64,000 nt of DNA from a virus: IMG/VR virus record IMGVR_UViG_3300018079_000002, positions 1 to 64,000 of that record. The stretch is one strand, 5' to 3'. The position numbers and the translations under genes were made by a program. The notes beneath the pieces were generated by a model that was given only the letters and a program-made list of their open reading frames with translations, ran no database searches and was not told the DNA's origin. Shown here piece by piece: positions 31,448 through 57,950 of this stretch (position 1 is its first letter; every line of letters starts with the position of its first letter).

Positions 31448-32536
31448 TTAGTCAGTAGGCGTGTTATCGATCTTGAGCCGGTAGAACGCCTTGCTGTAGC
31501 GCGTTAAGTCCTCGAACTGCAGCTCCAGCCCTTCCGGCAGCTCGGTGCGCATCACCGTGGTCCAGGTCACTAGGTCGCGACTGCGCTGCACCAGCACCTT
31601 GCGGCTGGCCACCCCGTAATTCAGCCGCACGTTAGGCAGGCCGTTGGGTCTGGCCGGGTCCGGCTCAAAGCGTATGGGACAATCCTCCGGTGCACAGCGC
31701 CGTCCGTTCCTGGCAAAGGACTGGTAGCCACCCCAATAGAAGTCAATGCCGTGCCCGTTGATAATGCGGTTGAATTCTTCGCCATTGATCAGTGGCAATT
31801 CACCGTTGGTCCCCCTGGGCAGGAAGGCATTGTAGGTAATCACCGGCCTGCCGTTGCGATGGGTGCCACGCAGGTGCCACAGCATCAGGTCCGCAGGCAC
31901 CGTTGGTTGTTCGCCACTAAGCCACATGGGCTCCATCAGCATCATGGGGGACGAGGCAGTATCCGTTTCGTTCGTTTCCACGTCACAATCCTCGCCGCAC
32001 TCTGGGTCTGAATCGGCTGGCCAGGTTTCCTCCCAGCAATACTCGATGCCACTACCCGAATACGAAGCAGCCGCATCGTCCGCATTGTTCAATGAGTATA
32101 CCCCAAACCCAAACTCGTCCGGTGGTGCATTAGTGTTGGCCGGAGCAGGTGGAGTGGGGCCAAAGTTCTTCTGGCAGAACCGGACGATCTTACAACTGAC
32201 CACCCCGCCCACTACGATGATCACAATGGCCACGATCAGTGGACCACTGCGCACTTCCGCCTTGGCTTTAGGTGGGGGTGTCAGTCCAATGCCCAGCAGG
32301 GAACAGGCCAGCACCAGCGCCACCAGCTTGTTGCGCGTATCCTTATGCAGAACGAACAACCACAGCACCGCTATTGCCGAGAATAAGCCCCAGAAGTATC
32401 GGTGCACGGTGCCCGAGCTGGCCAGCACACAGAGCAGCGTCAGTGCCCAGGTGAATCCAATCGCCTTATACGGGTGCATCCTGACCCATCCGTCGAATCG
32501 TTTTATTGCGTTCATGTTTTTCTTTTGGTTGACCAT
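31448..32536 (-). CDS. Membrane-anchored protein with verrucomicrobial-style C-terminal domain
   Basis: 362 residues. Four hydrophobic segments lie in the first 120 residues (AIGFTWALTLLCVLASSG; YFWGLFSAIAVLWLFVLH; LVALVLACSLLGIGL; LIVAIVIIVVGGVVSC). A Cys-containing acidic region follows. The C-terminus, VLVQRSRDLVTWTTVMRTEL...SKAFYRLKI, has the form common at the ends of exported Verrucomicrobia proteins. An internal ATG (32515) is an alternative start. A cell-envelope role, such as superinfection exclusion or surface remodelling, is plausible but unproven. It has no endolysin or holin signature. Confidence 0.6.
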   Translation of the reverse strand: MVNQKKNMNAIKRFDGWVRMHPYKAIGFTWALTLLCVLASSGTVHRYFWGLFSAIAVLWLFVLHKDTRNKLVALVLACSLLGIGLTPPPKAKAEVRSGPLIVAIVIIVVGGVVSCKIVRFCQKNFGPTPPAPANTNAPPDEFGFGVYSLNNADDAAASYSGSGIEYCWEETWPADSDPECGEDCDVETNETDTASSPMMLMEPMWLSGEQPTVPADLMLWHLRGTHRNGRPVITYNAFLPRGTNGELPLINGEEFNRIINGHGIDFYWGGYQSFARNGRRCAPEDCPIRFEPDPARPNGLPNVRLNYGVASRKVLVQRSRDLVTWTTVMRTELPEGLELQFEDLTRYSKAFYRLKIDNTPTD

Positions 32537-33999: not shown

Positions 34000-34304
34000 G
34001 GCGCCACCCGGTTGATGTAACAATCGTGGCACTCACCCGGCTTCGGCACTTCGCACCGACACCCTGGGCAATAATGCTTCTCCACCACGGTCGCCTGCTG
34101 CACTGGGCCATCCCCCATGACCTTAAGGTTGGCCGCAGTCATGTCCACGTGCAGGGTTACTCGCGCAAAGTCTTCCTCCGCGTCCAGGATATACTCCAGG
34201 CGTTTGACACCCAGCAGCTCCACCCCTGTTTTCGTCTTGATGACGGTGCCCATGCGGGTGCCATCACTCTCAATGATCAGATCGTTGTTGAGATTTATCG
34301 TCAT
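33996..34304 (-). CDS. Hypothetical protein with C-terminal zinc motif
   Basis: 102 residues from ATG at 34304 (ATGA overlap). The beta-rich first 75 residues (INLNNDLIIESDGTRMGTVI; FARVTLHVDMTAANLKVMGD) are followed by CPGCRCEVPKPGECHDC, four or five Cys that could bind zinc. Unknown. Confidence 0.55.
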   Translation of the reverse strand: MTINLNNDLIIESDGTRMGTVIKTKTGVELLGVKRLEYILDAEEDFARVTLHVDMTAANLKVMGDGPVQQATVVEKHYCPGCRCEVPKPGECHDCYINRVAP

Positions 34305-34585
34305 TTGATTCCTTTCGCATAGTTGGTTGGATAAGTCAGCACCACGGTCTCGCTCTTCAGACCAGTGTGCCCCACGGCCTGCACCATGATATAGGTCACT
34401 GGCGCAATCGTCTTGACCGTGACCTTGGGCTCCTTGGTGATTTGGAACTGGAGCACCTGATACGGCGCTGGGCCAGCACCCACAGACCAATAGGCCACGT
34501 TGGTGTCTGGCTTCCAGAACAGTGTAAAGGTTTCAGGCTTCTTCGCGCAGCCCACCAGCAGCAGTAGCAATAATAGTTTCTTCAT
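34301..34585 (-). CDS. Small lipoprotein
   Basis: 94 residues. Signal sequence MKKLLLLLLLVGCAKKP with a lipobox (L-V-G-C), so the mature protein would begin at Cys13 and be lipid-anchored. The rest is a beta-rich domain resembling a fibronectin fold (VAYWSVGAGPAPYQVLQFQI; APVTYIMVQAVGHTGLKSET). Could be a surface-exclusion or spanin-like lipoprotein; no partner is evident. Confidence 0.6.
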   Translation of the reverse strand: MKKLLLLLLLVGCAKKPETFTLFWKPDTNVAYWSVGAGPAPYQVLQFQITKEPKVTVKTIAPVTYIMVQAVGHTGLKSETVVLTYPTNYAKGIK

Positions 34586-34809
34586 ACCTTCTTCCTGATA
34601 GGTGGCCAATAGACCACCCAACCCTTACCCATGTGATCAACTTGTGCGTTGCGCAAGCCCAGGGCACCGGCTTCCTCCAACGCTTGATTCGCGTCATCGC
34701 AGTAAACCGCGCAGCAGGTTTCGCCATACATGCCACGGCCACTGTATTCGTCCTCGAAGCTGCCACCCACACGCTTGGCAACTTCTTCAATCTTTTCTAA
34801 TAAACTCAT
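34582..34809 (-). CDS. Hypothetical protein
   Basis: 75 residues: MSLLEKIEEVAKRVGGSFED, a CCAVYCDDANQALEEAGAL segment with an alpha/beta pattern, and an aromatic end (GKGWVVYWPPIRKK). ATGA overlap. Unknown. Confidence 0.5.
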   Translation of the reverse strand: MSLLEKIEEVAKRVGGSFEDEYSGRGMYGETCCAVYCDDANQALEEAGALGLRNAQVDHMGKGWVVYWPPIRKKV

Positions 34810-43532: not shown

Positions 43533-43774
43533 ACCGGTGTCCCGTCGCTGTAACCTTGATGAGTTACCTTAGCGGTGTTTTCCTTCGTGCTGCAGTCCAC
43601 GCAAATGTGTTCCCATTCCGTGCGGCATTGCGGATGTGGCCGCACCAGCCAACCGTTCTGTTTGATGATGGCCACCACCTGGCGGAAGTCTGCTGCCTCC
43701 AGGTCTTCTTCGCTGTGGCTGCACCGGTCGCAGCTAACGTCCCACAACCCGCGCGATGTGCCTCGTTCGATCAT
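43529..43774 (-). CDS. Small zinc-motif protein
   Basis: 81 residues: VSCDRCSHSEEDLEAADFRQ, HPQCRTEWEHICVDC. Two Cys pairs suggest a zinc ribbon. ATGA overlap with the MazG-like gene. Unknown function. Confidence 0.55.
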   Translation of the reverse strand: MIERGTSRGLWDVSCDRCSHSEEDLEAADFRQVVAIIKQNGWLVRPHPQCRTEWEHICVDCSTKENTAKVTHQGYSDGTPV

Positions 43775-44466
43775 TTTGAGTATGTCAGTCCTTGCAATTG
43801 ACTATAGGCAATGCCTCGTTCGTGCATTGCTTTGCGCCACAGCGTCCAGTCCTCGTCAGGCAGTCCCTCTGGGCGAGTGGTCATTAGCTGGGCCAGGTTC
43901 GGCTCAAAGAAGTTTGGACCCTTACCCACCTTGCCACTGGGGAATTTAATTGGACGGCCGTCCTCACCAAGCTTGGACATATTGCTGCGGTGCACTTCGG
44001 TATAACCGGCAAAGCGTAAGCTGCCAAAGCCCAGGGAACGCCAGGCCAGGTCCAGCTCGTTCTGGACACGGTTCAAACACGAAGGCAGCAGGTCCACCTG
44101 CCCGTCCGCCACGTGCTTGATGAACCGTGCGTGCTCCCGGTTCAACCCGGCCAGCAGGTTCAGATTGTTTTCCAGGTTGGTCATGCCAAGGACGGGTTTA
44201 TCGACCAAACTGAATTCGCGTTTGGACTCCGGCATGCCGAAGGTGCGGTAAGTGCCGTCCACCACGTATTGGCTGTCCACCAGCGCATCAAAGACCGCAA
44301 TGGGGTCTTGTGCGGCCAGAGCAGCAGCGAGCTCGCTAAGTTCTCCGCCAATGAGTTGGATGCGGACGAAGATGGTTTGGGCGTCCGGAATTCCGAGCCT
44401 CGACAGTTCTTTGATTTCATAGACACGATGGAATTCTCCATTCAGGTCGATCGTTTTGGTTTGCAT
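43771..44466 (-). CDS. MazG-like nucleotide pyrophosphohydrolase
   Basis: 231 residues from ATG at 44466. The metal-binding pattern ExxE...ExxD-like appears in RIQLIGGELSELAAALAAQD followed by AVFDALVDSQYVVDGTYRTF. The C-terminal GYTEVHRSNMSKLGEDGRPI and GKVGKGPNFFEPNL are typical of phage MazG-like/all-alpha NTP-PPase proteins. It probably hydrolyses (d)NTPs to monophosphates and shapes the precursor pool along with the dCMP deaminase and HD hydrolase. About 80 residues in the centre are specific to this branch. Confidence 0.75.
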   Translation of the reverse strand: MQTKTIDLNGEFHRVYEIKELSRLGIPDAQTIFVRIQLIGGELSELAAALAAQDPIAVFDALVDSQYVVDGTYRTFGMPESKREFSLVDKPVLGMTNLENNLNLLAGLNREHARFIKHVADGQVDLLPSCLNRVQNELDLAWRSLGFGSLRFAGYTEVHRSNMSKLGEDGRPIKFPSGKVGKGPNFFEPNLAQLMTTRPEGLPDEDWTLWRKAMHERGIAYSQLQGLTYSK

Positions 44467-44633
44467 ATTAGTTTGATGATGACGTATAGGCACCACAAGG
44501 GCCAGCTCAGCACCAAACAGATATGCCATCCTGGCCCTAAGTCGCGTCCTGCGGTTTTGAAGAAGGCACGGGCACACACGTGCCCAAGCCATAGGTAAAT
44601 TATCGCTGCAAGTGATTCGAGGAAGAAGTTCAT
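44442..44633 (-). CDS. Small membrane protein (63 aa)
   Basis: 63 residues from ATG at 44633. Two hydrophobic segments: NFFLESLAAIIYLWLGHVCA and WHICLVLSWPLWCLYVIIKL, ending basic (CKPKRS). Overlaps the MazG-like start. Could be a holin-like or inner-membrane protein; context gives no lysis partner. Confidence 0.5.
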   Translation of the reverse strand: MNFFLESLAAIIYLWLGHVCARAFFKTAGRDLGPGWHICLVLSWPLWCLYVIIKLICKPKRST

Positions 44634-47763: not shown

Positions 47764-48163
47764 ATCGTCCGTGATGAAGAACGTCGAGCAGTTCTTGATC
47801 GACAAGTCCTTCGTTCCATGTTTTCAATGCTCTCGTCCTGAGAGCAAGGCGGGGTAACTTACCCACATCATAAGCCTGCTCACCGGAAAACAGGAGCCAC
47901 TCGGTCCTGACCTGGAGCAGAAGATAAACTTCACCGCCCACCCGCCAGCGATTGATGATCCAGATGCGCTGCTGCTGAGTGAAGTGCGGTATCATAACAA
48001 TGTCATGCACGTGGTCCGGCCAGCGCCGTAGCCACTTCAGCTCCAGCCAACCCTCGGCATAGTTCACGTCCGGGGTGCCTGGATAGGCCGGGTTCTCCAC
48101 GGCAATCGCGTTTAGCGAACGCAACGCCTTGCAGACTCGACCGCGCATGCCATATTCACTCAT
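47630..48163 (-). CDS. PD-(D/E)xK nuclease (VRR-NUC / resolvase-like)
   Basis: 177 residues. Early motif VENPAYPGTPDVNYAEGWLE continues into LKW, giving G-x-PD-x(8)-E-x-K, the PD-(D/E)xK nuclease core. Later Gln residues (HFTQQQRIWIINRW) are as in VRR-NUC enzymes. May resolve branched DNA or trim ends in replication. The last 44 residues (Ala/Thr/Lys-rich) overlap the HTH gene and look unstructured. Confidence 0.65.
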   Translation of the reverse strand: MSEYGMRGRVCKALRSLNAIAVENPAYPGTPDVNYAEGWLELKWLRRWPDHVHDIVMIPHFTQQQRIWIINRWRVGGEVYLLLQVRTEWLLFSGEQAYDVGKLPRLALRTRALKTWNEGLVDQELLDVLHHGRYGHNDTNKPGTAKSMATAQAVASATGGKTLPRNPTKVFPMGKRH

Positions 48164-48642
48164 GCTATTGCTTCGTATTCAGTAACTTCAATCCCGGCCT
48201 TAGTCAAAAGTTCTCGCGAACGATCGTAAGAGTCCTTCGGGATGTTATTAGTCGCCACCGTGGCCAGGGTTACTACCCGGCCAATCCGTTTCTGAACTAA
48301 GTGCACGGCGCAACGGCAGCAGGGCAGCACCGGGTAAGTAAACAGTGTGTGACCGGAAACGTGCTCGTTGGCGAAAAAGACCGCATTCATTTCCGCATGA
48401 ATGGTCAGCTCCAGGCGTAGCCTCGGGTCGTGGAGCACCACTGGGTCATCCGGCATATCCTGGGGCAAACCGTTGAAGCCAACGGACGCAATGGTCAGGT
48501 CGTGCCGCACAATGACCGCACCCACTTTGGTCGAAGGGTCTTTGGACCAAGTGGAAACTTCTCGCGCTAGTCGTAGGAAGCGCATGTCCCATTTGGTTTG
48601 CTTTGCAGTCATCGCTCGTTCCAATTCAAACATGTTAGACAT
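48160..48642 (-). CDS. dCMP deaminase
   Basis: 160 residues. Zinc/catalytic motif IHAEMNAVFFAN with H82 and E84, and PCCRCAVHLV with C108 and C111 (PCxxC). KDPSTKVGAVIVRHD and VGFNGLPQDMPDD are typical of the deoxycytidylate deaminase family. Converts dCMP to dUMP, the substrate for the thymidylate-synthase-family enzyme at 52456-53496, so it feeds the proposed modified-base pathway. Confidence 0.85.
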   Translation of the reverse strand: MSNMFELERAMTAKQTKWDMRFLRLAREVSTWSKDPSTKVGAVIVRHDLTIASVGFNGLPQDMPDDPVVLHDPRLRLELTIHAEMNAVFFANEHVSGHTLFTYPVLPCCRCAVHLVQKRIGRVVTLATVATNNIPKDSYDRSRELLTKAGIEVTEYEAIA

Positions 48643-48655
48643 AAATTAGGCAACA

Positions 48656-50581
48656 TTATTCAACTTCACCCCAGCTAGGACCGATCTCCACGTCCACTTT
48701 ACTGGGCACCTGCAAGGGCACGCAGGTCCGCATAATCTCACCGATCTCCTCGGCCTGCTTATCGTCACGCACGCTGCCGTCCAGCTCGTCATGCACCTGG
48801 AGCTGGAGCTCGTGTCCGGCTGCGTCACACATCACCATGGCCGTCTTGGTCTGATCAGCACTGCTGCCCTGGATCAAACGGTTCAGCGCCTTATGGCACC
48901 AGTCGAAATTCCCAAGTGCATCCTTGGGAAACCGGCAGCGCCTTCCGCCCACCGTCACAATGAAGCCACGACTAAACGCAACTTCTTCGCAACGCTTGGC
49001 CAGCTCCTTGATGAACGGTGCCTTGTCATTGAAGGTGTCGAGGATGGTTTGTGCCTCGTTACCGGCCACTTCGATCTTCCGCTTCTTATCGGCCTTACCT
49101 ACTTCAATGACCTTAGTGGGTAGCTTTAAGTCCCGCGCCAACTTAGCCCCACCCATACCGTAACACAGCCCTAAGTAAACAATCTTCGCGTAACTGCGTT
49201 TCAACCCGGTCAAGTCCGCCATCATCTGGTGGTTGTCCGTATTCGGGTCGTTGCGATACTTGTCCGCAGCTTCCTGGGCACGGGAGCAATCCGCTAGCAC
49301 CGCATAGTGGGTCAGCACCCTGGGCTCCTGCTGCGAATAATCTGCGCTCATCCAGAAGTCAGTATCAGGCCGGTAAATCGAACGCCAGCGTTTGGCGAAT
49401 TCGTCACGCGCAGGTTGCTGCTGCATGTTCGGGTGCTCGCTGCTGAGACGGCCATAGCGTGCACCCCTAATCGCACCTTCTTCGTCTTCGCGTGCAATCT
49501 GATTGAAGACACAGTGGATACGGCCCTTACACATGTGGTCCCGAATACTGGCCGCAAAGGTGGTGCGTAGTTTATTAACCTTTCGTGCCCAGAGGATGGC
49601 TTCGGCCACCGGGTGGTCAATCCGGTCGAGCATAATCTTGTCAATATTCGGTGCACCCTTGGCGGTGCGGCCTACCTTGACTCCGATCTGCTCCAGGGCA
49701 GGTGCAATCAGGGTGGGTTGCCACACGCTGCCCACGGGAATAGCTATGCCGGTCTGGTGCTTTACCTTGGCCAGCGCCTCGGTCTCTTCGTAAAGGCACC
49801 AGCGTTCCACGCCTTCCAGCCGGTCCAGGTCAATGCGCACACCACGACGGCGCATCTTGACCAGCACCGGGAGCACCTTGCTTTCCAGGTTATAAATCTG
49901 CCACAGCTCCTGCTGGTCAATGATCTGTTCCTGCTTGCGTAATATCTCCAGTGGCCGCCGGGCATCCGCCTTCGCGTAGTCAGCGACATAGCGTGCCGGT
50001 AACTGCCACAAGTTATGCCAAACTTCTTTTTCGGGAATACCGGACAGCATCGCAGCATTCTTTAACATGGCCATGTCCTTACCGGGAATGCCATGACGTT
50101 CGCACAACGCACCTAAGTTATATTCGTCCAACAGTTCGTCGATCAGTGGGTCTGCAATTTGAACATCACGGAAGAACTTAACGTTGTTGAACCAAACCCC
50201 GTATTCGGCAAGATAGTCTAAGTCATAATTCATATTGGCCCCACCCAGGTCACCATCATAGTGCCTCGCCTGATCCTTCAAGTAGTCGAATACCTGGGTG
50301 GGGTCCAAATTGTCGCCGCCGCCATGTCCAACGGGTAAGTAAAAGTCCGGACCATCTTCAATGGCGAAAGATACTCCGGCAATTCGGCCGTCCCTCCTGG
50401 GGCCAGGACCAAGCTTCTTGAGATTCGGGTCTTTCGTCTCAATGTCGATACCGACACGCTTGGCACCTGCCCAGGAGGGTAGCTGGGAGACGGGGGTAGG
50501 TCTCCAGTCTCCTTGCGGTTGGAATAAGGGAAGCTGGAAGCCAGCAGCCCCTCGTGCAGTGTTATGTTTGCGCCGAGCCAT
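48656..50581 (-). CDS. DNA polymerase I (family A) with 3'-5' exonuclease
   Basis: 641 residues. Exonuclease: GIDIETKD (D46, E48), ANMNYDLDYLAEYGVW, and YVADYAKADARRPLEI. Polymerase: motif A SADYSQQEPRVLTHYAV, motif B region RSYAKIVYLGLCYGMGGAKL, motif C LQVHDELDGSV (H597, D598, E599). No 5' nuclease domain. The replicative enzyme; it would have to accept a modified dUTP precursor if the hypermodification scheme is right. Confidence 0.93.
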   Translation of the reverse strand: MARRKHNTARGAAGFQLPLFQPQGDWRPTPVSQLPSWAGAKRVGIDIETKDPNLKKLGPGPRRDGRIAGVSFAIEDGPDFYLPVGHGGGDNLDPTQVFDYLKDQARHYDGDLGGANMNYDLDYLAEYGVWFNNVKFFRDVQIADPLIDELLDEYNLGALCERHGIPGKDMAMLKNAAMLSGIPEKEVWHNLWQLPARYVADYAKADARRPLEILRKQEQIIDQQELWQIYNLESKVLPVLVKMRRRGVRIDLDRLEGVERWCLYEETEALAKVKHQTGIAIPVGSVWQPTLIAPALEQIGVKVGRTAKGAPNIDKIMLDRIDHPVAEAILWARKVNKLRTTFAASIRDHMCKGRIHCVFNQIAREDEEGAIRGARYGRLSSEHPNMQQQPARDEFAKRWRSIYRPDTDFWMSADYSQQEPRVLTHYAVLADCSRAQEAADKYRNDPNTDNHQMMADLTGLKRSYAKIVYLGLCYGMGGAKLARDLKLPTKVIEVGKADKKRKIEVAGNEAQTILDTFNDKAPFIKELAKRCEEVAFSRGFIVTVGGRRCRFPKDALGNFDWCHKALNRLIQGSSADQTKTAMVMCDAAGHELQLQVHDELDGSVRDDKQAEEIGEIMRTCVPLQVPSKVDVEIGPSWGEVE

Positions 50582-50930: not shown

Positions 50931-51397
50931 TTATTGTCTCTGTGGTTGTTAGCTTGGACCACTCCGCGAGCACGCATTTCAGCCTCGACAAGAAGCAGGT
51001 AGCGACGAAGATCGCGAACGTCGTCCAAAAGTCCTTCGGGTCGCTGGTCGGCAGCCAGACCAGCGAAGATATCCCAGGCAGGCACCGTCACTCCGGCCCA
51101 CCGGCTCATTGGTGCCAGTGCCGCTTTCTGTTCTGCGTTGCAGGCTGCATAGTCACTCGGCCACTTAGCTGGGTCGAGCGCAACTTCCATGCGGTCGAAC
51201 TTACGGCAGAATTGCATGAAGGCACCAGCGCCTCCACGTGACTTCCAGCTATCACCGTAGGAGACTGCGGCCTTCTTCAGACCAGCCGAGTCTTCTTTGA
51301 TGATACCGGCGATTGCCTCAAAAAGGATGATCTTATCCTCTTGAGTTATGCCATCCAGGTATTCCAGGAAGGCGAATGTTGCTGCTTTATCTGTCAT
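50927..51397 (-). CDS. Nmad1-like protein (DUF1599 type), nucleotide-modification associated
   Basis: 156 residues from ATG at 51397 (ATGA overlap with the cupin-like gene). The core SYGDSWKSRGGAGAFMQFCR continues into KFDRME, and the end has GLLDDVRDLRRYLLLVEAEM. This YGDSWxxRGGxGAFM pattern is that of a small helical family repeatedly found near phage base-modification genes (nucleotide modification associated domain). Biochemical role not known; a nucleotide-handling function is inferred from neighbours. Confidence 0.6.
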   Translation of the reverse strand: MTDKAATFAFLEYLDGITQEDKIILFEAIAGIIKEDSAGLKKAAVSYGDSWKSRGGAGAFMQFCRKFDRMEVALDPAKWPSDYAACNAEQKAALAPMSRWAGVTVPAWDIFAGLAADQRPEGLLDDVRDLRRYLLLVEAEMRARGVVQANNHRDNK

Positions 51398-51858
51398 TGG
51401 GGCACTCCAGTCCATTGGTCTTTACCGAATTTTTGATCCATGTATTCTCTCCAGTGCACCCATCCTCCGAGTGTATGGAAACCCCATGAACGTTGCTTGC
51501 GACCAATAAACACCAACGTCCATGCTGGTATAAATTTACCCCATTCGTCCGTGCGCAGCTCCACCCGATGAATGTCCGTGGCCTTGTGCCGCAGGACACT
51601 TCCAGGTCCGCACCAGCGCCGACGGTCAGTAAGTGGCGGGTGGTCCGTTAGGTATTCCCAATAGCCACCGCGCAGGATGAACGTGGTAAAGTTCCACGGA
51701 TGATCGTGCATGTCATCACGATCGTTCCGGTGAATGTTATGTAGGTAAATGCCGAACCAACGTGATCTCAGCACGAAGTAACGGGTCAGGTAAGGCGAAC
51801 CGTCTTGGTCGGCAATCGTGAATGGCCGGAGCCACTTGAGTAATAGTTTCTTGATCAT
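51394..51858 (-). CDS. Cupin-like conserved phage protein
   Basis: 154 residues. Beta-rich with His/Asp pairs: HNIHRNDRDDMHDHPWNFTT, then FILRGGYWEYLTDHPPL and VLRHKATDIHRVEL. The spacing of H-x-H-type residues resembles a double-stranded beta-helix metal site. Such proteins occur in many phages near nucleotide-metabolism genes with no assigned reaction. In this operon a sugar-, base- or amino-acid-handling role is possible but unproven. Confidence 0.55.
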   Translation of the reverse strand: MIKKLLLKWLRPFTIADQDGSPYLTRYFVLRSRWFGIYLHNIHRNDRDDMHDHPWNFTTFILRGGYWEYLTDHPPLTDRRRWCGPGSVLRHKATDIHRVELRTDEWGKFIPAWTLVFIGRKQRSWGFHTLGGWVHWREYMDQKFGKDQWTGVPQ

Positions 51859-52463
51859 ACTTCGGGTGTTCTGGTGTGTTCAAAGTGCGTCATAAAGTCA
51901 TAGACGCTGTTGGGCAACGGGTCCACTTGCTTCTCGAACCAGCCGTTGACCATACCTAGGGCACCAAGAATATTACGGTTGCCGAGCGCAAGCTGGTCAT
52001 GGCACCACAACCAGAATTCCAGGCGGTCAATCACGTCCAGCCACCAAGCATCGTCCTGACTTAGGATAGGTATTTGGATAGCTTTCTTCTTAGTCACCAC
52101 TGCCTCAGCGGCACGATACTCGATGCCTAACTGGTCGTTGAACCACTTAGCTGGAGCCGGCAAATCGCCTAACCAGCGTTCGGGTACGTCATGCAGTATC
52201 AAGGCCAGGATCAACTCCCGGCTGGCGTCTGGCTTGAGCACCAGCAGCAGCGTTAGGGCGTCCGCCACGTGCTTGCCTACCGTGTATTCACCGACGTGCG
52301 GCAGGGTGTGGCAGCGCCTCGTGTTGTTGCACTCGCGAAACATCAGCACCCGGTGCACCAGCCGTTCCGGTGCCATGTCCGGATGTCTGGCCACCGATGC
52401 ATCTTCGCGCACCGTCTTGAAGGGATGAAATGGTCCATCGTATATCGTCTTAGGCTTATCCAT
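51855..52463 (-). CDS. HD-domain nucleotide phosphohydrolase (YfbR/DatZ-like)
   Basis: 202 residues from ATG at 52463. VGEYTVGKHVADALTLLLVL supplies H65; HDVPERWLGD supplies H91, D92, E95 and D100 in the spacing HDxxExxxxD used by the 5'-deoxynucleotidase YfbR; IDRLEFWLW supplies D136. Related phage HD enzymes (DatZ) clear the canonical dNTP competing with a modified one. Next to a TS-family enzyme it may degrade dTTP/dTMP, but substrate is inference. Confidence 0.75.
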   Translation of the reverse strand: MDKPKTIYDGPFHPFKTVREDASVARHPDMAPERLVHRVLMFRECNNTRRCHTLPHVGEYTVGKHVADALTLLLVLKPDASRELILALILHDVPERWLGDLPAPAKWFNDQLGIEYRAAEAVVTKKKAIQIPILSQDDAWWLDVIDRLEFWLWCHDQLALGNRNILGALGMVNGWFEKQVDPLPNSVYDFMTHFEHTRTPEV

Positions 52464-53496
52464 GCTGCACCCCGTCATCCATGACTTTTTCAAACTTCGC
52501 TTTCCTGCGAAGTAACCATTCGTTGCCTGCGCGTTGCCAGTCCGGTGCTTCGCATGCAGTCAACGCCTCCAGGGCAGCGCCGTAACGTTCTCCACCTTCC
52601 GTCTCCTTGAAACGACGATAGGCGTTGCACATCGGCGCCACCACCTTGCGGAAGAACTTGGTCTTCAGGCCGGGTGGTGTGCCCAGTTCCATAAATGCCT
52701 GCAGGTCCGCTTCCCAGTGCTCGATCAATTCCCCTGGGCTTAGTAACGGCTGGTAATTGGTCGTGCCTTGTTGGTAAGGGTCGTTGTTGGCAACTTTCTG
52801 ATACGGCATATTGCCCAGGGAGAACAACGGCTCGGCGGTGGCCAGGTAGCCGTGCATGTTGTTACTGAACTGGTAGTATGGCCCCATTTCGCAGCCGATC
52901 AGCATGGCCAGGTATTCTTGCAGCACACTGAAGTGGACTGCGTTCGCACCGAGCGCACCCCAAACCAGGTCGTTGCTGCGATTGCAAACTGTCATAGTCA
53001 GACGGCCTGCCGTGTCGCGCAGGAAGTAGGCATGTGTATTGCAGGGCAGGTCTTTGCTTTGCAGCCCCAGGTCGTGGAAACCATCCCACATAGCCAGCAC
53101 CTGCCGACGGCAGTCCGGATTGTTCTTGAGTGCTAGCGCAATCGGGTAGAGCTGGTCCTTGCCGAAGTGCTTGCGCCAGCGAAACCCGTAGGCCGCGTTG
53201 AAGGTCTGGCCGTCATCCGAGAAGTCCGCCATGCGCTTAACATAGGCAGCGACGAAGGCTACGTCATTTCTCCCGGCCAGCATCCACAGGGACTCGACCA
53301 GATGGAAGAACGGATTGCAGTCGCGCTCCGGCCAGAACATTACCCGTTCCCAGGGACGTTCGTATTGCACGATCACCGGTGCCGGGAACACCAGCACTGG
53401 TCCATTTCGGCTTTCGCGTTTGACTCCATGTTGCTGGAGTTGATTCATTGCGCAGGGCAACACCTGGTGCACGTTCCGTGCCTGTATTCCATACAT
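52456..53496 (-). CDS. Thymidylate-synthase-family pyrimidine hydroxymethylase (dUMP candidate)
   Basis: 346 residues. Features of the TS fold: NPFFHLVESLWMLAGRNDVA (E68), FNAAYGFRWRKHFGKDQL, catalytic Cys in LPCNTHAYFLR (C152), and NRSNDLVWGALGANAVHFSV (R173, S174, D176, N185). The NRSNDxxWGxxGAN block is that of hydroxymethylase-type members (dCMP/CMP/dUMP hydroxymethylases) rather than classical TS (RSCDxxLGxPFN). With a hydroxymethyl-dU kinase beside it, making 5-hydroxymethyl-dUMP is most likely. dCMP or plain dTMP synthesis are the alternatives. Confidence 0.75.
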   Translation of the reverse strand: MYGIQARNVHQVLPCAMNQLQQHGVKRESRNGPVLVFPAPVIVQYERPWERVMFWPERDCNPFFHLVESLWMLAGRNDVAFVAAYVKRMADFSDDGQTFNAAYGFRWRKHFGKDQLYPIALALKNNPDCRRQVLAMWDGFHDLGLQSKDLPCNTHAYFLRDTAGRLTMTVCNRSNDLVWGALGANAVHFSVLQEYLAMLIGCEMGPYYQFSNNMHGYLATAEPLFSLGNMPYQKVANNDPYQQGTTNYQPLLSPGELIEHWEADLQAFMELGTPPGLKTKFFRKVVAPMCNAYRRFKETEGGERYGAALEALTACEAPDWQRAGNEWLLRRKAKFEKVMDDGVQHG

Positions 53497-53502
53497 AGGC
53501 TA

Positions 53503-54393
53503 TTACTTGGTTGAGCGGAAGAGTTGTTTCGGTCTTCCCTGACCGAGCCGAGCACGTTCGTATTTGTCGAATTCGCAGAGCGTGTGCTCGACTTCACGCA
53601 TCTCCCATAGGGGCCATTGATCGCACCAATACTTGGGGTGGCGCGAATATTCTAAAAGGTTCATCATGCCCAGGGCGAGCACGAGTTGATCTTCGTCTGA
53701 GTGGTAATTGAAGTGACCGATCTCGCCGTATACAACCCGGCTTAGGCCACGGGCAGCGCCTGGACCGGCGGACGCCCATTCGTTGATGTCCGTGGCCTGC
53801 TCCAGCACCCGTGTGTGGCGTAAGTCAGTGACAATTTCGTAAGCCATGAAGTTACCCACATAGGGAAACTCGCGCAGCAGTTCCCAGGCATAGCGTAAGG
53901 TATTCGCCTTACCCATCTTGAACCATAACTCCTTGTAGCAGTCACGTATGGGTGCAAGGATTTCGGCGATACCTTCAAACTTCGTTTTACCGGCTGGTGT
54001 CTTAAGCATGTAGGCCGAAGTTACAATGGGTGGCTCCAGCTTGGCCACCTGTGCACGGCAGCGCGTCGTGTCCCAGCCCTTCTCCAGGAGGATATGTGCC
54101 ATTGCCTCCAGGGTTGAAATGCGATTGAAGAAACGGCAGGCACACATGGCAATGACAACCTTGGGGTCATGCTTCAAGGGCTTGCGGATGTTCTTCTTGA
54201 TCCACCGCGTGGTGGTGTCGTCCTCGCGGAAGACGTTGCAAAAGCGATACGTCTGGAGTATCGGGTCCGTGGTCCAGGATGAGGCAGGCGTCTTGGCTTC
54301 GGTGCGCATCAGATAAATCGCGTAGCGCGTTGATGCGTAACCAAAGAACGGAGCCAGCCCCACCCACTCTTTGGTGGGCGGTAGCTCTTTCAT
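53503..54393 (-). CDS. Alpha-glutamyl/putrescinyl-thymine pyrophosphorylase-like amino acid:DNA transferase
   Basis: 296 residues. The N-terminal block STRYAIYLMRTEAKTPASSW, then TDPILQTYRFCNVFREDDTT and WIKKN is the diagnostic region of the DNA-hypermodification proteins described with 5-hmdU kinases. Later, LLREFPYVGNFMAYEIVTDL (residues 162-181) is a helix-hairpin-helix-like loop with Asp180, in line with the DNA-glycosylase-related fold of this family. Family knowledge: displaces (pyro)phosphate from 5-phospho-hydroxymethyl-dU in DNA and installs an amino-acid amine. Starts in a 4-bp overlap with the kinase gene. Confidence 0.8.
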   Translation of the reverse strand: MKELPPTKEWVGLAPFFGYASTRYAIYLMRTEAKTPASSWTTDPILQTYRFCNVFREDDTTTRWIKKNIRKPLKHDPKVVIAMCACRFFNRISTLEAMAHILLEKGWDTTRCRAQVAKLEPPIVTSAYMLKTPAGKTKFEGIAEILAPIRDCYKELWFKMGKANTLRYAWELLREFPYVGNFMAYEIVTDLRHTRVLEQATDINEWASAGPGAARGLSRVVYGEIGHFNYHSDEDQLVLALGMMNLLEYSRHPKYWCDQWPLWEMREVEHTLCEFDKYERARLGQGRPKQLFRSTK

Positions 54394-54947
54394 GCCAACC
54401 CCAGCATTTCTTCTATGAGGTCAGCAGCCTGCTGACGGTTGCAACGGAAGACCTGGACCGGTTTACCCGGCAGCTCCTCGAACCGTTGCGCCGCACGTTT
54501 GGCTTGGCTGTGCTTGGCGGTGGTGTTCTTGGTTGGCACCGGCTCCATTTCGCCTCGCGCCTGACGGCGTGCATTGACACCGGCGAGGCAGGTTTCGATT
54601 GTTTCCTCGATGAATACCACCCGGCAGTCAGGCAGCTCCTTGGTGCGATTGATCTCGTTTGTCAGCAGCAGCCCCTCGAACAGCACGTTGCGTCCGAGTG
54701 CTATCTGTTCCTGGATAAGTTGATACGTTGTATCAATCTTAGTGATGGTATCACAACCACCGCACGGTGACTCATAGTGTCCCAGGACGGCCAGCTCTGG
54801 CGTCCCTTCACCATTGCGCATGATGTAATACAAAGGCTGCTTGCGGTCTTCCACTCGCACCGGCTCCTTGTTGGAGTAGAGACTCATAATGTGACGAACA
54901 AGGAATGACTTACCTGAGCCACTTGTTCCACGAATATTGATGATCAT
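54390..54947 (-). CDS. 5-hydroxymethyl-dU DNA kinase-like P-loop protein
   Basis: 185 residues. Walker A GTSGSGKS at residues 7-14, a GHYESPCGGCDTITKIDTTY block (57-76) characteristic of phage 5-HMUD kinases, and a Walker B-like NVLFEGLLLTNE (87-98). A basic lid follows (NARRQARGEMEPVPTKNTTA). In the known scheme it phosphorylates the hydroxymethyl group of 5-hmdU already in DNA, priming it for the transferase encoded next. Promoter candidate and direct repeats lie upstream (55031-55106). Confidence 0.8.
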   Translation of the reverse strand: MIINIRGTSGSGKSFLVRHIMSLYSNKEPVRVEDRKQPLYYIMRNGEGTPELAVLGHYESPCGGCDTITKIDTTYQLIQEQIALGRNVLFEGLLLTNEINRTKELPDCRVVFIEETIETCLAGVNARRQARGEMEPVPTKNTTAKHSQAKRAAQRFEELPGKPVQVFRCNRQQAADLIEEMLGLA

Positions 54948-55030
54948 AGACTGCTTTGCTCAAACCGACGTTGACTGCTCACTAGACTGGTTTACCCGCC
55001 ATCCGTGCGGACCAGCTATCTGAATGTTGT

Positions 55031-55059
55031 CATTTTCGCTGACGCACGTAAAAAGGCAA
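55031..55059 (-). promoter_or_regulatory. Promoter candidate upstream of the modification kinase
   Basis: TTGCCT (55059-55054), T-rich spacer start, 17 bases, then AAAATG (55036-55031) followed by ACAAC. Matches the 40259-40287 candidate at the -35 and in the trailing GACAAC, but the -10 is poor. The gap 54948-55101 has no other gene. Confidence 0.35.
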
Positions 55060-55074
55060 CGATAAGTTACTAAA

Positions 55075-55106
55075 GGTTATTAACGTGTTATGCACCGGTT
55101 ATTAAC
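55075..55106. repeat. Direct repeats GGTTATTAAC, 22 bp apart
   Basis: Two identical 10-bp copies at 55075-55084 and 55097-55106 (GTTAATAACC on the minus strand), start-to-start 22 bp, i.e. two helical turns, just upstream of the promoter candidate at 55031-55059. The second copy includes the stop codon of the 59-aa gene. Fits an activator or repressor dimer site. Confidence 0.5.
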
Positions 55107-55281
55107 TTTCCAGGCCCACGGCCTTTAGGGCACGCTGGGCAATCATTTCAAACTCGGCCATGGAGAGGCGCTGGGTGGAGCCGGTTAAGTTGTTAACCAC
55201 CAGCGCGTAGTCCTCCGGCGGACGGATAATGAAGGTTGATTCCTTCGAACGAAGAACCATTTCCACAAATTCGCCTTTCAT
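55102..55281 (-). CDS. Small protein (59 aa)
   Basis: 59 codons from ATG at 55281 (ATGA overlap with the upstream stop) to TAA at 55102. MKGEFVEMVLRSKESTFIIR, then PPEDYALVVNNLTGSTQRLS and an amphipathic helix AEFEMIAQRALKAVGL. Codon use and coupling support it. Unknown function. Confidence 0.6.
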   Translation of the reverse strand: MKGEFVEMVLRSKESTFIIRPPEDYALVVNNLTGSTQRLSMAEFEMIAQRALKAVGLES

Positions 55282-55490
55282 ATCATTGGCCCACTCTTAA
55301 GTTGATCAACGTAGGCCGCATTGGTGCGGCCAGTTGCCCTGCAGGAACGGCACTGCACTGCTGAGAAGTCAGAAGACTTGACGCGATAACCATCGAAAGC
55401 CGAACAACGGGCATTACGTTGCACCACTACCCAGTTGCGCTCGGCCACCGGCTTCTTACGTTCCGGACAATGACAGTTGAACCAATGCAT
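55278..55490 (-). CDS. Small Cys-rich protein
   Basis: 70 residues. WVVVQRNARCSAFDGYRVKS followed by AVQCRSCRATGRTNAAYVDQ is a pattern seen in many unnamed phage zinc proteins; N-terminal CHCPERK adds further Cys. Starts right after the discoidin-like gene. Unknown. Confidence 0.6.
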   Translation of the reverse strand: MHWFNCHCPERKKPVAERNWVVVQRNARCSAFDGYRVKSSDFSAVQCRSCRATGRTNAAYVDQLKSGPMI

Positions 55491-56215
55491 TACCGTGCGA
55501 GCTGTTCGGTGCGATAAAAGTTGCCACTGTTGGTGCTAATCCTGGGGCCAACCCAGCGATGCTCGTAATTGGTGGTAATGGTTTCGGCTTTGCGGGTCCA
55601 GGTGTCCTCCAGGCGCATCTTGCTGTCGATACCATAGCGCAGGTTCGGCATACCACGCATGATCACCACGTCCTGGCGGTCAGTCACTGAGTGCCCGTTC
55701 TGCTGGAATACGAAAATACGGTGCTGCATTTCCAGCAATGGCCCATCAAAGCGATAACCGAACACGGCCAACTCCCCGATCTCCAGATTAGTCGGATACT
55801 TAACCTGGATACGAATAAACTTCGCTGGCCGTCGCACCTGGAGCACCTGCGGAAAGTTGACCCACTGCTGGAAGCGATAGCTAAAGGTGGTCACGTCCGG
55901 GTCAAAGGCGACATTGGTGGTGGCGCTATTGAACGGCAGGTTGGAGACAAACACGAAGAAGTTGGTGGGCGCATTGCTCGCCCTGGGCAACACTTCCAGG
56001 TGATTGATCCAATTGGTTTGGGCGAATGACAACTCCAGCCACGGGGTGTCCTCAAAGCCACTGACCGCAAACGTATTCGTGTTTCCATCGATGGCATTCG
56101 AGGCTGGCAGCACCTGTGACGACTGTGACGCGGACGCGCCTCTGGTGACGTTCGAATTCTGCGCATGAATAACGCCTGTTAGGAGCAGGCCCATTAGTAT
56201 GATTATTCTTTTCAT
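55490..56215 (-). CDS. Exported discoidin (F5/8 type C)-like protein
   Basis: 241 residues. Signal peptide MKRIIILMGLLLTGVIHAQ. Residues about 20-150 follow the F5/8C plan: NVTRGASASQSSQVLPASNA with the IDGNTNTFA turn, DTPWLELSFAQTNWINHLEV, and FIRIQVKYPTNLEIGELAVF. The C-terminal part ends ISTNSGNFYRTEQLAR. F5/8C domains bind sugars or surfaces. Located inside the DNA-modification block, between the flavoprotein and the kinase, which is unexpected. May act at the cell surface or be structural. Confidence 0.65.
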   Translation of the reverse strand: MKRIIILMGLLLTGVIHAQNSNVTRGASASQSSQVLPASNAIDGNTNTFAVSGFEDTPWLELSFAQTNWINHLEVLPRASNAPTNFFVFVSNLPFNSATTNVAFDPDVTTFSYRFQQWVNFPQVLQVRRPAKFIRIQVKYPTNLEIGELAVFGYRFDGPLLEMQHRIFVFQQNGHSVTDRQDVVIMRGMPNLRYGIDSKMRLEDTWTRKAETITTNYEHRWVGPRISTNSGNFYRTEQLAR

Positions 56216-57087
56216 GGTTTTGGTTTATCTTTCATTTTAAATTCGGCGCAAACTTGTGCGGCGCACCAGCCATACACCACCAGGCCGTTCTTACCACCAC
56301 CGTTGACGTGCCAAATGTTCGGATGGTCTTCTCCGCAATAGCCAAACTCGTGGTGCTCGACGATAGGCCGGTAGCCGATCATCATCTTCTTTACCCGCAT
56401 GTCACCCACATGTTGACGCGCATGGCGCAGGGTCAGCGCCTGGACTTCCTGGGCACGTTTCTCGTATTCATCAATCAGCAGCGCCACGGTGTCCGCGTAA
56501 TAGACCGTGTCCTCGTCATACTGGTAAAGCTTCTCGTGACGGTAAGGTGCCCACATGCCAAGTCTGCTCTGCCCAGGAGCGAGGCGTCCTTCAAAAAGGT
56601 AGCAGTGGCCAATTCGTGCCCACACCTTGAGGCTGGACCCATGGCCGTAAAGGCCGATGGGTGCGAGCTCTGGTGCACGATACCCGGCACAGATGATGGT
56701 GGGGCCATCGAAGGTCTTCATTGTGCCCTTGCCGGACAGCAGCACCCGCACGCCTTCACCGGTGAGCTGTTCGACTTTACCAACCACGTCCGGTTTGACC
56801 AGCACAGCCTGGACCGGGATTTGTTTGACCTTTGGCGCGTCCTTAATTCCAGAGGCGAACGGGTGGACGATCTTAGGTCCATACAGCTCCTGGAGCAGGC
56901 GAAAGCCGGTGTCCACCTTGCCACGGTCGAACCGAGTCACCCAGGACGGGGTGAACAGGTTGTCGCTGGGTGGCGAACCGGCTTTCTTGTCTGCATCGTC
57001 AATGACACGCACCTTGAACCCTTCACGGCGCAGGTGCGTGGAAACAATTGAACCGGCGAGACCGGCTCCAATTACGTTGATCATCAT
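56212..57087 (-). CDS. FAD-dependent oxidoreductase-like protein, candidate flavin lyase of the modification pathway
   Basis: 291 residues. Rossmann GxGxxG at the very start (NVIGAGLAGSIVSTHLRREG) with an acidic residue ending the second strand (VRVIDDADKK). The C-terminal FAD-closing motif is near PIVEHHEFGYCGEDHPN and WHVNGGGKNGLVVYGWCAAQ. Overall it resembles the D-amino-acid/glycine oxidase group. Flavin-dependent lyases that trim an amino acid attached to thymine are known in phage hypermodification pathways. Overlap with the transferase-like gene (ATGA) suggests the two act together. Confidence 0.7.
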   Translation of the reverse strand: MMINVIGAGLAGSIVSTHLRREGFKVRVIDDADKKAGSPPSDNLFTPSWVTRFDRGKVDTGFRLLQELYGPKIVHPFASGIKDAPKVKQIPVQAVLVKPDVVGKVEQLTGEGVRVLLSGKGTMKTFDGPTIICAGYRAPELAPIGLYGHGSSLKVWARIGHCYLFEGRLAPGQSRLGMWAPYRHEKLYQYDEDTVYYADTVALLIDEYEKRAQEVQALTLRHARQHVGDMRVKKMMIGYRPIVEHHEFGYCGEDHPNIWHVNGGGKNGLVVYGWCAAQVCAEFKMKDKPKP

Positions 57088-57950
57088 ATGTGTTTCGGCA
57101 TGTGCTTAAGAAACATCTTTGCCTCGTCCAGTGCCTTGGTCCAAGGCTCCAACCCGGCAGTGATTTCGTCGATGTCGTTGTAAATGGGGTAGTGACCGTT
57201 CATGTGGCTCTTCCACTTGCAAAGAATCGTTTCGATCTCCTGCAAGCCCAGGGGACGGTGGTCGTCCGGCGGTGCCTTGAAGTCTGCGAAGACACCCTGT
57301 AGGTGTTTGACCACCCCGGAAATAATCTCCACGTGTGCGGCCTTATCCTTTGGCCTGGCGTCTTCGGGCAAGCCCTTCTTCGCTCGCCAGAGCATCAGTG
57401 CGGCCTTGGTTGGATCAGTGAACATGAAGACGGCTGCTTCGCTGAAGTCTACCGGCACCTTGAACACTCGCTCCGTCATGTCAGCCACCTTGAACGCAAT
57501 CCAGGGTCCGAACAGCATGTGTTCCTGGACACGGTTGGCCACGGCGGTAAAGTCGCCACCCTCGCCAATCACGTAATCCACGAACGCTTCCGGCTGCGGA
57601 TACTTCGTGCGCAGCTCCTTGACCGCCTTGATGGCCGCATTGCCGCGAAAATGCCGCCGTTCATGACCGCGTTCCCACCGAGTGCCAAGTGGCGTCTCGG
57701 TTTTGTTCTCCGCAGCCATGTGCATGATATCCCAAAAGCTTTTACCGTCTTTGGTGGAGGCAATATAGCAGGATGGCCCTGCTGCATAGTAACACCAATA
57801 CGCCACGAGCCAACGCTTGACCCATTTAATCTTGCGAGGGTCTTTGAGGATACCGCACAGCGCGATATAAATGGGGTCAAGATCGTTGGTTTCAAGGAGA
57901 CGCCTGCCGAATTTTTCAATCGGCAGGCGTTCATAGTTTCGTCCGGCCAT
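57084..57950 (-). CDS. Second transferase-like protein of the aGPT-PPlase superfamily (different clade)
   Basis: 288 residues. The segment VQEHMLFGPWIAFKVADMTE followed by RVFKVPVDFS (141-170) has the helix-hairpin-helix-like G-P-W-x-A-x-K-x-x-D of the glycosylase-related thymine-modification proteins (D157). Upstream RWLVAYWCYYAAGPSCYIAS and RGHERRHFRGNAAIKAVKEL fit the same family. Its N-terminal part differs from the protein at 53503-54393, so it belongs to another clade. Coupled by ATGA to the flavoprotein gene. Probable role: installs an amino acid on phosphorylated 5-hmdU, or a second substrate. Confidence 0.65.
   Translation of the reverse strand: MAGRNYERLPIEKFGRRLLETNDLDPIYIALCGILKDPRKIKWVKRWLVAYWCYYAAGPSCYIASTKDGKSFWDIMHMAAENKTETPLGTRWERGHERRHFRGNAAIKAVKELRTKYPQPEAFVDYVIGEGGDFTAVANRVQEHMLFGPWIAFKVADMTERVFKVPVDFSEAAVFMFTDPTKAALMLWRAKKGLPEDARPKDKAAHVEIISGVVKHLQGVFADFKAPPDDHRPLGLQEIETILCKWKSHMNGHYPIYNDIDEITAGLEPWTKALDEAKMFLKHMPKHI

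Follow-up and report, generated by a model that had tools for sequence, protein, structure and literature searches.

Gene content and order of the cluster

The first 64,000 bases of the 69,987-base virus record IMGVR_UViG_3300018079_000002 (the window) carry a set of genes resembling the thymidine hypermodification genes of Pseudomonas phages PaMx11 and M6. This set is found at bases 51855-57950 and, like all of the genes of interest here, lies on the minus strand. Based on Pfam and PHROG scans, the order in the direction of transcription is an amino acid:DNA transferase (AADT), a flavoprotein, a discoidin-like protein, two small open reading frames (ORFs), a P-loop kinase, its helical partner (HMUDK_hel), a thymidylate synthase (TS)-family protein, an HD-domain protein and a cupin-like protein. 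Downstream are two ORFs of no known identity, a PolA-type DNA polymerase gene and a deoxycytidine monophosphate (dCMP) deaminase gene, while a pyrophosphohydrolase-like gene is situated past the primase.

This arrangement closely follows that of PaMx11 (NC_028770), in which gp46 (AADT), gp47 (a flavin adenine dinucleotide (FAD) protein), gp48 (acetyltransferase), gp49 (P-loop protein), gp50 (helical protein), gp51 (TS family) and gp52 (HD domain) are encoded in order. The identities of the window proteins to gp46-gp52 are 46%, 28%, none, 45%, 50%, 53% and 44%, respectively, and that of the polymerase is 58%. In both genomes the HD gene is followed by genes for PolA, dCMP deaminase, a nuclease and a primase. 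The two differ in that PaMx11 encodes the gp48 acetyltransferase where the window has the discoidin gene and the two small ORFs, and in that the ribonucleotide reductase of the window is M6-like whereas PaMx11 has NrdA/NrdB. Phages M6 and YuA, which have a 5-(2-aminoethyl)-deoxyuridine pathway, show the same core order (AADT gp51, 52% identity to the window; TS family gp58, 53%; PolA gp62, 58%; ribonucleotide reductase, 60%), but M6 has pyridoxal phosphate (PLP) and radical S-adenosylmethionine (SAM) enzymes in the tailoring slot, carries Nmad5 and lacks a flavin lyase, the reverse of the window. The E-values given below exceed chance by far, and so does the one-to-one agreement in gene order with PaMx11 and M6.

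Proposed precursor synthesis, base phosphorylation and amino acid transfer

The TS-family gene (52456-53496; phrog_5131, E-value: 3e-120) is predicted to encode a deoxyuridine monophosphate (dUMP) 5-hydroxymethylase, in agreement with an initial annotation of the window. The best solved relatives of this protein are cytidine monophosphate (CMP) 5-hydroxymethylases (E-value: 2e-15), which bear Asp at the position of its N185. Residues C152, R173, D176 and N185 are invariant in 35 homologues, and we take C152 to be the catalytic cysteine of this family and N185 to be the asparagine that selects uracil. In true thymidylate synthases, a tryptophan shields the methylene intermediate; the window protein has Met at this position, where the 35 homologues carry M, I, F, V or L and never Trp. 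These features point to a dUMP hydroxymethylase. TS profiles do match the protein, as would be expected of an ordinary thymidylate synthase in a cluster making no hypermodified base, but this explanation is highly improbable given the PF18723 and PF18724 partners described below, the 53% identity to the M6 and PaMx11 enzymes, the CMP hydroxymethylases as nearest solved proteins and the replacement of the shielding Trp in every homologue.

Three further genes are predicted to act on the nucleotide pool or in replication. The HD-domain protein (51855-52493; phrog_6047, E-value: 4e-43), an orthologue of PaMx11 gp52, resembles the 5'-deoxynucleotidase YfbR (PDB 2paq, E-value: 2e-7); its predicted metal ligands (H75, H101-D102 and D156) are conserved in 30 homologues, and it probably shapes the pool of thymidine monophosphate (dTMP) and 5-hydroxymethyl-dUMP. 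The polymerase (48656-50581; phrog_17, E-value: 6e-109) has the same identity to PaMx11 gp55 as to M6 gp62. The dCMP deaminase (48160-48642; PF00383, E-value: 2e-17) is 45% identical to M6 gp65 over 99 amino acids and 36% identical to PaMx11 gp56. This gene, the HD phosphohydrolase gene and the MazG/pyrophosphohydrolase-like gene (43771-44592; phrog_671, E-value: 1e-25) had all been listed in the initial annotation and are confirmed by these matches.

Two adjacent genes are predicted to encode a kinase acting on 5-hydroxymethyl-deoxyuridine (5-hmdU) in DNA. The first (54390-54947), which had been described as HMUD kinase-like, encodes an orthologue of PaMx11 gp49 and M6 gp54 with an intact Walker A motif (GTSGSGKS) and a match to phrog_800 (E-value: 2e-17). 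This protein itself matches the HMUDK_HMUD1 family only at an E-value of 0.015; seven of 13 aligned orthologues match it (best E-value: 7.7e-18), and the orthologue group matches PF18748. A PHROG label of "terminase small subunit" was rejected as misleading, given the matches of the orthologues to the family of 5-hmdU DNA kinases. The second gene (53503-54393; PF18723, E-value: 1e-41) encodes the helical-domain protein HMUDK_hel, formerly aGPT-PPlase1 and orthologous to PaMx11 gp50. Together, the two proteins have the family signatures of a 5-hmdU DNA kinase.

The AADT gene (57084-57950) encodes an orthologue of PaMx11 gp46 and M6 gp51 (PF18724, E-value: 3e-25; phrog_6364, E-value: 1e-98). Its matches among solved structures include PDB 25qc (E-value: 7e-95) and 8z2m (E-value: 3.5e-81). 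Entries 8z2m and 8z2n are titled "Glycinyltransferase", and 8z2o and 8z79 are titled "N-alpha-GlyT FAD-dependent lyase gp47/NGTO" (PaMx11); we infer that 8z2m is PaMx11 gp46. These four entries rank at or near the top among solved matches to the AADT and the flavoprotein of the window. All columns invariant in 17 AADT homologues are kept in the window protein. Salmonella phage Vi01 (ViI), which belongs to a different phage family and has a 5-(2-aminoethoxy)methyl-deoxyuridine pathway, also encodes a PF18724 transferase, but no similarity between it and the window AADT was detected with BLAST. The AADT is predicted to swap the base phosphate for an amino acid, and glycine is the likely one. The initial annotation had counted two glycosylase-fold transferase-like proteins here: one is indeed a transferase, while the other is the helical partner of the kinase. 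Both the PF18724 and PF18723 proteins were once called aGPT-PPlase 1 and 2.

The identity and order of these genes are observed directly, while each reaction is assigned from characterised relatives. In the proposed pathway, dCMP deaminase would supply dUMP, which the TS-family enzyme would convert to 5-hydroxymethyl-dUMP, with the HD phosphohydrolase probably clearing competing dTMP. PolA would then insert hmdU (from hmdUTP) into DNA, the P-loop kinase and its helical partner would phosphorylate the 5-hydroxymethyl group within DNA, and the AADT would put an amino acid, glycine being the likeliest, in place of the base phosphate to give N-alpha-glycinylthymidine. Finally, the flavin-dependent lyase would most likely break the glycine nitrogen-carbon bond to leave 5-aminomethyl-deoxyuridine (5-aminomethyl-dU). 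DNA modified in this way is expected to withstand many restriction enzymes. The general scheme put forward in the initial annotation (an hmdU precursor, its incorporation, base phosphorylation and replacement by an amino-acid-derived group) is strongly supported by family membership, conserved residues and synteny with PaMx11 and M6. Judging from these features, the window very probably carries a working hmdU-based thymidine hypermodification cluster.

The flavoprotein and the predicted end product

The flavoprotein gene (56212-57087), also anticipated in the initial annotation, encodes a divergent member of the PaMx11 gp47/NGTO family of flavin-dependent lyases. Family scans identified DAO (E-value: 6e-9) and phrog_16743 (E-value: 7e-24), and the PaMx11 entries 8z2o (E-value: 1.6e-18) and 8z79 (E-value: 4e-18) were matched among solved structures. 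An AlphaFold2 model (predicted local distance difference test (pLDDT) score: 82.6) had the same two entries as its best PDB matches (template modelling (TM) score: ~0.78), with ThiO next (0.57), and the E-value of PaMx11 gp47/NGTO in this comparison was nine orders of magnitude ahead of that of the next protein. Comparison with MnmC and ThiO gave only a weak match in the Rossmann region. The reading frame is intact, as are the Rossmann GxGxxG and Arg-Pro motifs, and all 21 invariant family columns are retained, including those of G-x-RP and GG-x-KNG. Sequence, modelled fold and family hidden Markov model (HMM) thus all place this protein in the PaMx11 gp47 family, and it is predicted to cut N-alpha-glycinylthymidine to 5-aminomethyl-dU. 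The tRNA enzyme MnmC1 takes the carboxymethyl group off 5-carboxymethylaminomethyl-uridine, a reaction similar to that expected here.

The record was also searched for genes that might act further on this product. No GNAT acetyltransferase related to PaMx11 gp48 was found in the 70-kb record by tblastn or with PF00583, a search covering a single Pfam family and a single protein. The record also yielded no PLP (PALP) or radical SAM enzymes. Nmad5 was detected neither by tblastn nor with PF18757, the latter search having been run without a positive control. With acetyltransferase, radical SAM and PLP genes all undetected, tailoring should end at 5-aminomethyl-dU.

Three points weigh against this prediction. 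First, the flavoprotein is a family outlier, with 20-28% identity to the other members and a score of 144.6 bits against a family HMM built without it, compared with 306-398 bits for the members. Second, the family motif W-x-GDG[ST] is absent, W-x-GDG being replaced by Y-x-ADT (Y-Y-ADT at residues 196-200 of the window protein, against WVGDG in PaMx11 gp47). Conservation of W-x-GDG is an observed pattern rather than an established catalytic need; in glycine-oxidase-like enzymes, the strand-loop matching this region sits near the substrate. The motif changes (W196 to Y, G198 to A and G200 to T) and three further substitutions (F11 to A, W137 to R and A272 to Y) fall in columns whose conservation among 16-17 homologues is 90% or more. 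The divergent enzyme could accordingly act on a different substrate, form a different product or lack activity. Third, the record is perhaps incomplete and the GNAT search was narrow, such that a further tailoring gene may have been missed. A scan of viral contigs with the flavoprotein as sole query found no relatives. The final step is the least certain of the pathway because the flavoprotein has lost near-invariant residues.

These residues bear on two other outcomes. If the flavoprotein were degenerate or acted elsewhere, N-alpha-glycinylthymidine would be the end product; the lost residues are consistent with this, but the intact frame, the confidently modelled fold and the preserved GxGxxG and Arg-Pro motifs make it improbable. 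Alternatively, the pathway could be the same through amino acid transfer, with the flavoenzyme using another amino acid or giving another end product, or with the genes inserted in the slot between AADT and kinase adding a group. The six substitutions, the low HMM score and the unique insertion of the discoidin gene and the 70- and 59-amino acid ORFs favour such a change. The retention of all 21 invariant columns, the top structural match to PaMx11 NGTO, the 46-52% identity of the AADT to the PaMx11 and M6 enzymes, and the signal peptide and lack of an enzyme family match in the discoidin-like protein speak against it, and we consider it rather unlikely. It is doubtful, specifically, that the altered W-x-GDG flavoenzyme and the inserted genes together yield an undescribed thymidine derivative in place of 5-aminomethyl-dU. 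A PaMx11-type operon running through to 5-aminomethyl-dU is the best explanation of the cluster (probability of roughly 0.8), and this base is modestly favoured as the actual end product.

The tailoring slot and related loci

The discoidin-like gene (55490-56215) occupies the place of the PaMx11 acetyltransferase gene, between the AADT/flavoprotein pair and the kinase. It encodes a putatively secreted protein of 241 amino acids with an F5/8 type C match just under the cut-off (E-value: 7.7e-6) and an N-terminus (MKRIIILMGLLLTGVIHAQ) that looks like a signal peptide; a single-sequence model was poor (pLDDT: 33). No relatives were found in viral contigs, phage records or 43 related loci. The adjacent ORFs, from the ORF list, encode a cysteine-rich protein of 70 amino acids that is a possible zinc ribbon (55278-55490) and a protein of 59 amino acids (55102-55281), neither of which has a counterpart in the related loci. 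This insertion is peculiar to the window among the loci compared. The accessory cupin-like gene (51394-51858; phrog_4786, E-value: 2e-41) has relatives in unrelated phages, for the most part mycobacteriophages, and none in the 43 related hypermodification loci. The cupin named in the initial annotation is therefore present, but its membership in the pathway is not upheld; both it and the discoidin-like protein were rejected as pathway enzymes because they are unconserved across these loci. For the Nmad1-like protein of that annotation, neither Pfam nor PHROG scans of the cluster gave any support; the unassigned 241-amino acid protein there shows only the signal peptide and the sub-threshold domain.

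The same cluster architecture occurs in approximately 40 related viral and phage loci. An AADT and a flavin lyase without the acetyltransferase are found in nine of these besides the window (L002, L003, L019, L024, L028, L031, L032, L033 and Stenotrophomonas phage Sonora (MZ326860; L044)), so the gene combination of the window is not new. Sonora and the eight contigs have a canonical W-x-GDG flavin lyase and no discoidin insertion, and Sonora and L019 bear Nmad5, which the window lacks. Clusters of the M6/PaMx11 type are known to be widespread in environmental phages (PMC9599517), and the same set is already on record for PaMx11, M6 and relatives from metagenomes.

Other contents of the slot were observed in this comparison. 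Three loci (L007:10663-11559, L013:5341-6273 and L022:981-1949) carry between AADT and kinase a gene for a family of ~300-amino acid proteins with an N-terminal GxGxxG-like motif, and have no flavin lyase, PLP or radical SAM genes. The family has no Pfam match, and L007, the sole member scanned against PHROG, had none there; hhalign comparison with NGTO gave a probability of 1-3%, which does not show kinship. This family is a candidate new tailoring enzyme. In L035, L036 and L037, a radical SAM gene is present and two kinase-like genes flank the AADT; no PLP gene was found, nor was a helical partner by BLAST.

Phage affiliation and significance

The major capsid protein shares 80% identity with that of Pseudomonas phage Epa5, and TerL ~60% with those of Mesyanzhinovviridae phages, which identifies the virus as an uncultivated Mesyanzhinovviridae-like siphophage. 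Proteobacterial hosts are given for nearly all records encoding a related AADT, with one Pseudanabaena phage listed. Scanning genome contigs with the AADT alignment gave five contigs of metagenome-assembled genomes (two labelled Anaerolinea and one each labelled Thermogutta, Gammaproteobacteria and Burkholderiales), for which misbinning is possible; none was verrucomicrobial. Extension of the pathway to a verrucomicrobial host, as first suggested, is thus unsupported by any of the analyses, since the genes for the virion and for replication are of the kind found in Mesyanzhinovviridae phages, for which nearly all listed hosts are Proteobacteria. The proteins encoded at 31448-32536, 55490-56215 and 34301-34621 may resemble secreted proteins of the Planctomycetes-Verrucomicrobia-Chlamydiae (PVC) group. 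The first two had no match in phage records, and discoidin searches of 294 and 299 genomes of the L049 and L050 phyla gave weak matches only. The 31448-32536 gene encodes a membrane or secreted protein of 362 amino acids whose C-terminal segment ("SRDLVTWT...FYRLKI") recalls, we assume, verrucomicrobial secreted proteins. Elsewhere in the window, two DUF4031 proteins are encoded in this one phage (32466-32960 and 43128-43532), and ~2 kb at bases 1-2076 are nearly devoid of long ORFs.

Modification of the M6 type has been reported to confer restriction resistance (PMC6449724; PMC9476957, phage SN1), and the phage described here probably shields its DNA from restriction enzymes through chemistry that is already known. 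The cluster adds a new member to the PaMx11-like branch and narrows the chemistry predicted for it to a single product that can be tested, and its flavoprotein, with changed conserved residues, is a good probe of how much change flavin chemistry on DNA bases can tolerate. Comparison of the relatives indicates that the slot between AADT and kinase is a place where phages exchange tailoring enzymes, and also brings to light the protein family of L007, L013 and L022 in that slot.

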